Shown one piece after another: positions 23,756-27,451 of a stretch of 64,000 nucleotides of DNA. Made by a program: the position numbers and the translations under genes. Below the pieces are notes generated by a model. It had not been told where the DNA came from. It searched no databases and was given only the letters and a program-made list of their open reading frames with translations. How positions within the stretch are numbered: the first letter of the stretch is position 1; each line of letters begins with the position of its first letter. The DNA comes from Enterobacter sp. JUb54 (lineage in GTDB: Bacteria; Pseudomonadota; Gammaproteobacteria; Enterobacterales; Enterobacteriaceae): assembly GCF_014298075.1 (NCBI RefSeq), contig NZ_CP060418.1, positions 2,852,001-2,916,000 of the forward strand, given 5' to 3'.

Positions 23756-25051
23756 TCAGGCGCTTTTTTTGGCAATTAAACGTTCCGGGAGCAGGAAGCT
23801 AAACCGCGTCCCCTTGCCCAGGGTACTCTCAATTTCCAGTCGGCTGTCATGATGATTAACCGCATGTTTGACGATAGCCAGCCCCAGGCCGCTGCCGCCG
23901 GTCTGGCGCGACCGGGCTTTATCAACGCGATAAAACCGCTCGGTCAGGCGCGGAATATGCTCCGGCGCAATACCGGGGCCGTTATCCTCGACGCTAAACA
24001 GCGCGCCGTGCGGCGCCCGCTGCCAGCTGACGGTGATCTCCGTCCCGGCAGGGGTATGGTTAATAGCGTTATACACCAGGTTGGATATCGCGCTGCGCAG
24101 CTGCTCTTCATTGCCGAGCACCTGCAGGCTGTCATCCACCGCGAAATGCAGGGTGTGCTTCTGCTGGCTGAGGGTCTGCGCTTCGCGCTCCACCACCCGC
24201 AGCATCATCGGCACGTCAATTTTGTCATTCATCGCCAGGGTTGGCGCGGCTTCAATGCGTGACAGGGTTAACAGCTGTTTGACCAACCCTTCCATGCGCT
24301 GAGTTTGCTCGCGCATGGTATGCAGCGCTTTCTCGCGCGTCATCCCTTCCAGCACCTGCTCCTGCATCATCTCCAGATAGCCCTGCAGCACCGTCAACGG
24401 CGTGCGCAGTTCATGGCTGACGTTAGCAAAAAAGTTACGCCGCGCGCCTTCGAGCTGGTGCATCTGCGTGACGTCGCGTGCCACCATCAGCCACTGTTTG
24501 TCGCTGTAGGGCATCACGCGGATCTCCAGATGGCGAGCCGTGTTGAGCACCAGATTGAGAGGTTTGGAGAAGTCCCGGTTTTTGAGGTAGTTAGCAAATT
24601 CAGGGTAACGCAGAAGGTTGAGAATGTTTTGTCCGCTGTCGTCCGGCCAGCGCAGATTCAGGATCTGCTGCGCCAGACCATTACACCAGAAGATGGCGCC
24701 CTCCTCCGTCGTCAGCACCACCGCATCGGGCAATGACTCCGCCCCGCTACGAAAGCGTTTGATCAGACTGCCCAGCTCGCGTCGACGCTTTTTATTACGC
24801 ATCTGCATCTGGTGGAGGCCATACAGCAGCGGTTCCCAGCTGCCGCTTCCCGGCGGCGGCGTCATGCTGCGGTCAACCCACAGCCACCATGACAGGCGCA
24901 TCAGGTTCCAGAAATGCCATATCAGCAGGCCGGTCACCGCCGCCAGCAAAAACCACGGCAGATGACCAAAAATCGCCCCAAGGATCAGGGCCGGTATACA
25001 ACATAAGAAAAGCTCAAGCGCCAGCCTTTTCCATGACAGCCGTTCCAGCAC
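23756..25051 (-). CDS. phoR: Phosphate regulon sensor histidine kinase PhoR
   Basis: PhoR phosphorylates PhoB when phosphate is limiting, with input from PstSCAB-PhoU. The 431 residues match E. coli. There are two N-terminal membrane segments (about 10-28 and 33-58), a basic linker, a PAS domain (about 96-185), the HisKA dimerisation domain with His213 in [10 protein letters not shown], and an ATPase domain with [13 protein letters not shown] (N box), [10 protein letters not shown] (G1) and [12 protein letters not shown] (G2). It starts 21 bp after the phoB stop codon, so both are in one operon. Confidence 0.97.
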
Positions 25052-25072: not shown

Positions 25073-25762
25073 TCAGAAACGAGCGGAGAAACGATACCCC
25101 GTGCCGCGAACCGTTTGTACCATCCGGTCATGGCCGCTAAGTTCCAGCGCTTTACGTAGACGACGAATATGCACATCCACCGTTCGGTCTTCTACATACA
25201 CGTTCGTACCCCAGACGTGATTCAGCAGCTGTTCGCGGCTGTACACGCGTTCCGGGTGGGTCATAAAGAAATGTAATAATTTAAATTCCGTTGGCCCCAT
25301 GTCCAGCGGACTTTCACCGGTCATCACGCGATGCGAGGAAGGATCCAGGCTAAGGCCTTGCATTTCAATCACTTCTTCTACCGCCATCGGCGAAATTCGA
25401 CGCATCACCGCTTTGATACGCGCCACCAGCTCTTTCGGTGAGAAAGGCTTGGTAATGTAATCGTCGGCCCCGGTTTCCAGGCCACGAACGCGGTCTTCTT
25501 CTTCACCGCGCGCGGTCAGCATCACCACCGGAATATCCCGGGTCATCGCTTCGCGCTTCAGTTGTTTAATAAACTGCAGACCCGACCCGCCCGGTAGCAT
25601 CCAGTCAAGGAGAATCAAATCAGGCCAGGGTTCATTGAGTTGATTCACCGCACTGTCATAATCTTCCGCCTCGACGGGCTGAAAGCCGTTTTGCTCCAGA
25701 ACAAAGCAGACCATTTCGCGGATCGGAGCTTCATCTTCAACGACCAGAATTCTTCTCGCCAT
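25073..25762 (-). CDS. phoB: Phosphate regulon response regulator PhoB
   Basis: PhoB is the DNA-binding activator of the Pho regulon (pst, phoA, psiF, phoBR). The 229 residues equal E. coli PhoB. The receiver domain has the acidic pair at Glu9/Asp10, phosphorylation site Asp53 in LLDWMLPGG, and the conserved lysine in [10 protein letters not shown]. The C-terminal OmpR-type winged helix (about 128-229) ends [20 protein letters not shown] followed by GTGYRFS. A Pho box stands about 60 bp upstream, giving autoregulation. It is divergent from sbcD. Confidence 0.98.
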
Positions 25763-25913: not shown

Positions 25914-26218
25914 GGCAACCTGAAGGATGAAGAATATATACCCAAAATTATTCGAGTTGCTTGTAGGCAGCAAGGCCGTGACAAATCGGTATTAACCGAT
26001 TTGAACAGCGCTTGCGCTGGCCCGAAGGGTGAGCCTCATCATCAATGAGGCTCATAATTCCCAGGAGCTTACTCAGGTAAGTGACTGGGGTGACAAATCT
26101 GTCTGGAACAGATTTGAACGCTGCGAGCAGCGGCCCTGATAAGGGTGAGGCTCATGGATGAGCCGAATAACGGTGCAGCTAACACCCAAGCAACTTGAAG
26201 GATGAAGGGTATAATGCG
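25914..26218. repeat. Composite ERIC element with two inserted modules, preceded by an ERIC right-end fragment
   Basis: The ERIC core (CCCAGGAGCTTAC...GTAAGTGACTGGGG) is at 26060-26090. The left end TATACCCAAAATTATTCGAG starts at 25937 and the right end GCAACTTGAAGGATGAAGGG then TATA ends near 26214. Between left end and core lies a 77-bp module (25979-26055), and between core and right end a related 72-bp module (26091-26162). Both contain TGACAAAT, a small inverted repeat, ATTTGAAC, a second hairpin and AGGGTGAGxCTCAT. Removing both leaves about 130 bp, the normal ERIC size (about 127 bp). An extra right-end copy (GGCAACCTGAAGGATGAAGA) abuts on the left at 25914-25933. Confidence 0.88.
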
Positions 26219-26248: not shown

Positions 26249-27451
26249 ATGCGCATCATTCATACCTCTGACTGGCACCTGGGTCAGAATTTTTACAGTA
26301 AAAGCCGTGCCGCCGAACATTCGGCCTTTCTCGACTGGCTGCTGTCCAACGCCCAGCAGCACGAGGTCGATGCCATCATTGTCGCCGGTGATATTTTTGA
26401 TACCGGATCGCCCCCCAGCTACGCCCGCGAACTGTATAACCACTTTGTGGTGCAGCTTCAGCAGGCCGGCTGTCAGCTGGTAGTGCTGGCCGGCAACCAT
26501 GACTCGGTCGCGACCCTGAATGAATCCCGCGACATCCTGGCCTTTTTGAAAACCACGGTGGTGGCCAACGCGGGGCATGCCCCCTTTATCCTGCCCCTGC
26601 GTGACGGCACCCCCGGCGCTGTTTTTTGCCCGGTGCCGTTCCTGCGCCCGCGCGAGCTGGTCACCAGCCAGGCGGGACACTCCAGCGGCGAGAAGCAACA
26701 GCAGCTGTTAAGCGCTATCAGCGACTATTATCAACAGCAGTATCAGCAGGCCTGCGACCTGCGCGGCGACCGCCCGCTGCCGATAATTGCCAGCGGTCAC
26801 CTGACCACCGTCGGCGCCAGTAAAAGTGATGCGGTACGCGATATCTATATCGGGACCCTGGAGGCGTTTCCCGCCAGCCATTTCCCGCCGGTTGACTATA
26901 TTGCGCTCGGCCATATTCACCGGGCGCAGCTGGTCGGCGGCAACGAGCATATTCGCTACAGCGGCTCACCGATCTCCCTCAGTTTTGACGAAACGGGGAA
27001 AAGTAAAAGCGTCAATCTGGTGACCTTTACCGATGGCCATCTGACAGACGTGAGCCCGCTGACGGTACCGGTTACCCAGCCGCTGGCGGTCCTGAAAGGC
27101 GATTTCGCCAGCATCAGCGAACAGCTCACCCAGTGGCGGGACGCCCCAGCGGACCCCGTCACATGGCTGGATATTGAAATCACCAGCGACGAATACCTGC
27201 ATGATATCCAACGTAAAATTCAGGCCCAGACCGACGACCTGCCGGTGGAAGTGCTGCTGGTTCGCCGCAGCCGCGCCCAGCGCGAACGGATCCTCGCCGG
27301 GGAACGCCGCGAAACGCTCAGTGAATTACGCGTGGAAGAGGTGTTTGAACGCCGTCTGGCGCAGGAAACGCTGGAAGAGACGCAGCAGCAGCGCCTGAAG
27401 CAGCTGTTTAACGAAACGCTGCATAGCCTGCACGGTGAGGAGCACCTGTGA
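26249..27451 (+). CDS. sbcD: Exonuclease subunit SbcD
   Basis: SbcD is the nuclease of the SbcCD complex (bacterial Mre11-Rad50), which cleaves DNA hairpins and processes palindromes and protein-blocked ends. The 400 residues match E. coli. Metallophosphatase motifs appear in order: HTSDWHLGQ (about 5-13), [17 protein letters not shown], the GHLTTVG histidine and ALGHIHRAQ. The start [10 protein letters not shown] at 26249 agrees with the family; an upstream in-frame ATG lies within the ERIC-derived leader. A TATAAT at 26210-26215 inside the ERIC end may be its -10 box. It overlaps sbcC by 4 bp. Confidence 0.96.

Follow-up and report, generated by a model that had tools for sequence, protein, structure and literature searches.

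The DNA analysed here, the window, is a stretch of 64,000 nucleotides from Enterobacter sp. JUb54, and the element under study is intergenic between phoB and sbcD (Table 1). It starts with TATACCC at 25937, stops with GGGTATA at 26213, and conforms to the definition of an ERIC, namely an imperfect palindrome of about 127 bp with the known core and TATA ends. At the right end of the ERIC the letters TATAAT are formed at 26210-26215. Two related modules are inserted in it, and when these are subtracted the joined remainder of 126 nt agrees in 119 of 127 columns with the plain ERICs that match it best in the same genome, in line with the preliminary description, which had put the remainder at the usual ERIC length.

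Table 1. Features at the phoB-sbcD locus, in positions of the window
Feature	Positions	Strand	Basis and remarks
phoB, neighbouring gene	25073-25762	-	NCBIfam NF007546, 532 bits (cut-off 471)
Host DNA left of the ERIC	25914-25936		Sister genomes, by eye
ERIC carrying two modules	25937-26213	+	277 nt; 126 nt without modules
GTGA entry motif abutting left module	25978-25981	+	
Left module	25982-26056	+	75 nt; ERIC site 45, after GTGA; covariance model 71.6 bits
Left-module hairpins	H1 25982-26003, H2 26006-26019, H3 26020-26030, H4 26031-26053	+	RNA fold and sequence
ERIC core palindrome	26060-26089	+	Pattern search
GTGA entry motif abutting right module	26090-26093	+	
Right module	26094-26169	+	76 nt; ERIC site 82, after GGGGTGA; covariance model 100.2 bits
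Right-module hairpins	H1 26094-26116, H2 26119-26132, H3 26133-26146, H4 26149-26164	+	RNA fold and sequence
sbcD, neighbouring gene	26249-27451	+	NCBIfam NF008206, 604.7 bits (cut-off 450); ATG at 26249

Each module opens with CAAATC, immediately preceded by GTGA, and closes with ATA before an A, the junctions reading GTGA/CAAATC...CTCATA/ATTCCC on the left and GGGGTGA/CAAATC...CGAATA/ACGG on the right, with a one-base ambiguity at each border. They share the order of parts CAAA-H1-TTTGAAC-H2-GGCCC-H3-GGGTGAG-H4-ATA and are identical in 58 of 81 aligned columns, and their alignment score of 28.5 (against -4.9 +/- 3.7 in 2000 mononucleotide shuffles, none of which scored as high) confirms that two related modules inside one ERIC are real and beyond chance. 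The two inserts had thus been recognised correctly, but the positions first given for them, 25979-26055 and 26091-26162, are replaced by those of Table 1. Bases 25914-25936 had been read as the left end of the ERIC, a claim that is withdrawn since loci without any ERIC (L095-L098) have similar bases there; the stretch may be a relic of an old ERIC end. When folded as RNA, the plus strand forms the ERIC terminal stem, the core stem and four hairpins in each module (z = -10.7, none of 200 shuffles as low), and because the minus strand folds nearly alike (z = -10.6) the fold alone gives no strand assignment. Taken by itself, the element in the window is an unremarkable ERIC that bears two insertions of a kind already known. 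Elsewhere in the window, on the minus strand and within the gene beside phoB, a weak match to the COG2908 RNA at 24645-24701 (27.5 bits, cut-off 58.7) is probably due to chance.

Twenty genomes of the genus were searched and yielded 28 loci that were readable over the phoB-sbcD intergenic region, eight genomes being represented twice. As judged by eye, the site holds no ERIC in L095-L098 and several others, and decayed ERIC remains in the orientation of the window in L101, L102, L103 and L105. The site is empty in L106, L108 carries an ERIC of opposite orientation with one module at the same TATA, and L104 and L107 carry shortened forms of the latter. Opposite ERIC orientations at the same TATA before sbcD in different species point to repeated entry, and ERICs have probably entered this site more than once. 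In the sister genomes the empty site is rich in TATA and its adjoining bases differ, so that any duplication of TA could be judged by eye alone. Among the alignments listed, those covering both modules and the full ERIC were found in at least eight places in five other genomes of the genus.

Structure and distribution of the module family

In the source genome a pattern search found 10 copies of the module, against none on a reversed control, and a covariance model built from seven sequences found 24 (alignment R1 leaves out three lineage-B rows, MAFFT having shifted lineage B by one base). By reading, these copies lie in the right arms of ERICs, where two lineages occur, in tRNA 3' arrays and in tandem behind a gene, and the only copy in a left arm is that of the window. 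The right module of the window is identical to three further copies in the same genome. Single loci deserve mention in their own right: one module lies 86 bases past the 5S rRNA gene that closes an rRNA operon, on the same strand (L058, 1501-1574); another in a tRNA 3' array appears by eye to be nested within a further module (L004, 1400-1640); and a gene is followed by three directly adjoining modules in head-to-tail order (L056, 1360-1572, that is 3042313-3042525).

Modules are mostly 66-86 bp long, and throughout the family four consecutive hairpins with conserved joints follow the order CAAA-H1-TTTGAAC-H2-GGCCC-H3-GGG(T/C)GAG-H4-CGARTA. Compensatory changes, on which the preliminary description had made its structural reading depend, are plentiful in both the class- and the family-level alignments. 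In these alignments, which were fitted to the covariance model and lean toward it, 97.3% of the cells pair among 73 distinct class-level rows, with 21 of 24 pairs changed on both sides and a covariation of 0.582 (0.152 when shuffled, 0.039-0.074 when slid); the corresponding values for 89 distinct family-level rows are 97.8%, 19 of 24 pairs and 0.504 (0.157 when shuffled). Covariation is strong in three hairpins and weak in H3, where it is seen in two of four pairs at class level and one of four at family level, because the CCC/GGG of this hairpin scarcely varies.

Matches to the covariance model, counted at E <= 0.001 with model E-values that are rough, were present in all 20 genomes of the genus (8-67 copies each), in 57 of 119 genomes of the family, in 106 of 274 of the class and in 54 of 200 of the phylum; 34 of these 54 lie outside the class, 26 of them in one family. 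A genome scan with a strict pattern, which proved too strict, gave three matches (Silvania, a Thiotrichales MAG and Atlantibacter). With one query module, matches were obtained in 674 of 5426 genomes of an E. coli collection, in 177 plasmid records, 172 of which are from Salmonella, and in eight records of a phage collection, five of which are bacterial contigs. The module is not ERIC-specific and belongs to a much wider family.

Copies in ERICs also differ by lineage. In a tree of 111 family-level copies, which has few columns and many weak forks, 17 changes suffice to account for the site labels, where shuffled labels require 46.8. The deepest fork separates off a side that contains nine of the ten left-site copies (three of the ten labels were assigned manually) but not one of the 47 right-site copies. 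The left module of the window is among the nine, so that its two modules stand on different branches and are not sisters derived by local duplication.

Insertion sites and alleles

Junctions were drawn from 250 covariance-model matches in the fetched loci, the overlapping L054, L059, L060 and L064 being left out of one batch. A short key distinguishes 197 junctions among them (143 outside ERIC) and a longer key 219. Larger repeats in which the module is a passenger account for many of them, and these are not independent. The bases directly upstream are GA in 175 of the 219, CA in 21 and neither in 23. Outside ERIC the figures are 107 (GA) and 17 (CA) of 143, with A downstream in 76%, and GA precedes the module in 55 of 60 ERIC junctions.

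The expectation that insertions would recur at the same two ERIC positions is borne out in other genera. On a 127-bp ERIC, the 60 distinct ERIC junctions fall at sites 28 (7), 45-49 (7, the left site), 82 (23, the right site), 86 (19), 89 (3) and 95 (1). Two or more modules share one ERIC in 13 loci from eight genera, of which seven loci (four genera) combine the left site with 82 or 86 and the rest mostly combine 28 with 82 or 86; in L082 and L083 match positions indicate three modules in one ERIC. The two arms of the palindrome had been proposed as the defined target. This is not supported, since the further sites 28, 86, 89 and 95 are used, the modules are oriented alike and not mirrored, and the same module also occurs in tRNA arrays, in other repeats and in genes; what the insertion sites have in common is mostly GA directly upstream. 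The symmetry noticed earlier follows from sites 45 and 82 being equidistant from the centre of the ERIC. A general preference for hairpin loops, an idea that had come from tRNA T-arms and a YPAL hairpin, was rejected (26% against 21% of control GA positions, p = 0.48; with tRNA-like sites included 25% against 20%, p = 0.36). Pairing across the junction is slightly above that of mismatched flanks (p = 0.017).

Among the junctions outside ERIC, 24 end in TTCGA as in the tRNA T-loop and 13 of these continue with ATC, which indicates that the module splits copied tRNA 3' halves. A tRNA was found in the locus in 14 of 80 class-level regions and 10 of 49 trimmed mixed loci, against none of 49 control stretches, and no tRNA lay near the module in 40 family-level regions. 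Where the module lies in a tRNA array, its position predicts co-transcription with the tRNA. In one genome (G105, L078) the module splits one hairpin of a YPAL-type repeat that matches the printed RU-2 in 129 of 162 aligned bases. Two further loci of that genome (L260 and L264) are similar, placing YPAL-type repeats outside Yersinia-named records; L088 and L271, which looked YPAL-like by eye, were rejected as their alignment to RU-2 was not above shuffles. Just 3' of tmRNA and on the same strand, L231 (283-675) has a module within an RtT-like match. Genome G123 (L330-L341) holds at least about 20 identical copies among the matches listed, many near contig ends. The G123 copies share a non-coding stretch of about 400-530 bp (12 regions), an unnamed composite repeat, and the one locus with ORFs listed contained no transposase that would make it a protein-coding carrier. 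In G261 and G272 a single reading frame runs through the module in related genes.

Occupied and empty alleles could be compared in two cases. The dxs-yajO region of E. coli exists in three alleles, one without ERIC (L281), one with an ERIC (L279, L280) and one with an ERIC and a module (L275). With the module the junctions read GGTGAACGA/CAAATCC...GAATA/ACTCGCAG and without it GGTGAACGA/ATGCAG, and the three bases after the border differ between the alleles. In 40 records taken at even ranking steps, one covered the full query, 20 covered 91%, 18 covered 78% and one was a fragment, and the full, 91% and 78% classes are those expected from the three alleles. These alleles may reflect either gain or precise loss of the module. 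In the terminase large subunit of the Mu-like phage PhiKM, an in-frame insert of 72 nt follows ATGA and is absent from the homologues of KP12, Phi06_2974 B and the more distant YPCBV-1; its absence from three homologues, one of them distant, makes gain the simpler reading. For an Rhs-type site (L080), no close empty homologue was found in E. coli.

Proposed mobility of the module and its alternatives

The window ERIC has probably been entered twice by a short, non-autonomous mobile module that is spread through the Gammaproteobacteria and some other proteobacteria. Such a module would enter DNA one way round, mostly 3' of GA and before A, without duplicating its target. An ERIC would offer few sites of this kind, and that of the window would have been struck at 45 and 82 by two module lineages. 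The module would be moved by an enzyme acting in trans, perhaps as a folded single strand, and to the single-strand step we would give even chances at best. Comparison of seven lineage-A copies at ERIC site 82 of the source genome bears on this proposal: the modules are 96-100% identical, four of them being identical, while the 46 ERIC bases to the right are 62-89% and the 82 bases to the left 58-95% identical (L055, which has lost its left arm, is omitted, and left values with L042 are lowered by its left module). Near-identical modules in divergent ERICs suggest that the module moved after the ERICs had diverged, or that conversion tracts end at its border, and gene conversion ending there could indeed place identical modules in different ERICs.

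A rival reading is that the module cannot move by itself but is a long-standing component of ERIC-like and tRNA-linked repeats, spread only with them and by conversion and lost from plain ERICs by deletion. The clustering of left- and right-site copies by site in the tree is in its favour, as are the many identical copies with identical flanks in G383, G025 and G123. It must nevertheless explain why divergence of the ERICs begins at the module border, and why the same junction is found throughout in a phage terminase, in the reading frames of G261 and G272 and in a YPAL-type repeat, and we regard it as quite improbable. A private duplication of one insert within the window ERIC, to which two related modules in a single element could have pointed, is of vanishing probability: the left copy falls among left-site copies from other genera, the right copy among other right-site copies, and this tree together with the recurrence of two-module ERICs in 13 loci rules it out. 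Mobility could alternatively be secondary to a function as RNA, the module being an attenuator or a processing or stability element such as rtT under selection. This is suggested by the strong covariation, by an RtT match above cut-off that covers the module in L219, by modules behind tRNA, 5S rRNA and tmRNA genes, and by an influence of ERIC on mRNA stability reported in the available text of PMC2229807. Against it stand the in-frame copies in coding sequence, the equal folding of both strands and a promoter scan that found no sigma-70-like site on the plus strand at the window locus. Furthermore, G-T pairs are rare, with 129 of 4835 pair cells (Watson-Crick 4578, A-C 42), and their excess over A-C, largely due to a single H3 pair, was rejected as a sign of RNA-level selection. 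A primary RNA function is accordingly hard to credit.

The module has traits that recall single-strand transposition of the IS200/IS605 type: it is inserted in one orientation only, just after a short motif that abuts its 5' border, and duplication-free, as for REP/RAYT and IS200/IS605, and hairpins form both ends. That a Y1/HUH transposase moves it, as for REP (RAYT) or IS200/IS605 derivatives, is nonetheless unlikely. No Y1_Tnp match was found in the module-rich G000, G025, G097 and G003 (four of the 17 module-bearing genomes searched), 30 Y1 loci (87 kb) gave one weak module match, and a Y1 or RAYT partner was discarded for lack of linkage to the modules. The reading is also weakened by the absence of a replication-fork bias, which would have been a sign of single-strand insertion: across 15 genomes 70 copies are co-directional with the fork and 64 opposed to it (p = 0.67; 139 of 288 matches were used, near neighbours being left out, and collapsed to 134).

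Relation to known systems

ERIC insertions of about 70 bp at set sites have so far been regarded as a local oddity of one repeat. Published accounts of insertions in ERICs go back to 1997: PMC3696847 cites Sharp 1997, "Insertions within ERIC sequences", as well as Cromie et al. 1997, whose title concerns interruptions of the sequence that keep a well-folded RNA structure. The ERIC insertions are thus known, and the wider, probably mobile module family is added here. This wider family is not described in the accessible parts of PMC2229807, PMC2267715, PMC10969869, PMC2759123, PMC2965389 and PMC3091717, nor in any title or abstract of the literature searched, which is weak evidence of absence as most subscription journals lie outside its coverage.

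A broader view, which we hold to be possible though somewhat doubtful, is that one proteobacterial family of four-hairpin mobile modules, oriented and duplication-free, underlies the ERIC insertions, the rtT RNA of tRNA operons, an Aggregatibacter sRNA and the passengers of other repeats, that it would move itself at GA^A via an enzyme not yet described that recognises the folded strand, and that it would be a principal source of composite repeats in these genomes. If this is true, the ERIC inserts, RtT, AaHKsRNA22 and composite repeats become a single question, that of the enzyme for four hairpins with a cut at GA^A, and ERIC size variation would have a concrete cause. In addition, the in-frame copies of the module show one way in which short peptides come to be inserted in gene products.

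Two RNA families come close to the module. RtT RNA (RF00391) matches enclose matches of our model on the same strand in L219 (283-421 around 301-377), L213 and L231, but among the scanned loci only L219, with 63.1 against 45, is above the cut-off, copied 3' parts of tRNAs are included in RtT as well, and an Rfam scan up to E 1 gave no RtT match at the window element. According to the available text of PMC2965389, the largest cluster of enterobacterial attenuators includes several members that are similar to rtT and are parts of BIMEs. The Aggregatibacter sRNA AaHKsRNA22 (RF02902) has the same order of hairpins and joints in its alignment, although all matches are below its cut-off of 39.8 bits (28.1 to 34.5; right module of the window 29.1). 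Other Rfam matches at the window were far below their cut-offs.

Of the mobile repeats, REP/REPIN elements with RAYT and the IS200/IS605 derivatives are likewise small, folded, oriented and free of target duplications, whereas the module has neither a linked Y1 gene nor a fork strand bias. The traits of MITEs are lacking, since the module ends are different hairpins (CAAA...TTTG versus H4) and not terminal inverted repeats, and no target site duplication was seen at the dxs-yajO alleles or in the phage terminase. The Yersinia palindromic sequence YPAL/RU-2, of 168 bp and with target duplications of 3-26 bp in the available text of PMC2229807, is a small folded repeat too, but here acts as host to the module (G105, L078). 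Rickettsia palindromic elements, which as described in the same text are small folded repeats lying in frame inside genes, can be likened to it by description and belong to a different bacterial class. Finally, Sharp 1997 and Cromie et al. 1997 concern, by their titles, inserts inside ERIC with the fold kept, whereas the module described here occurs in many surroundings and beyond the enterobacteria.
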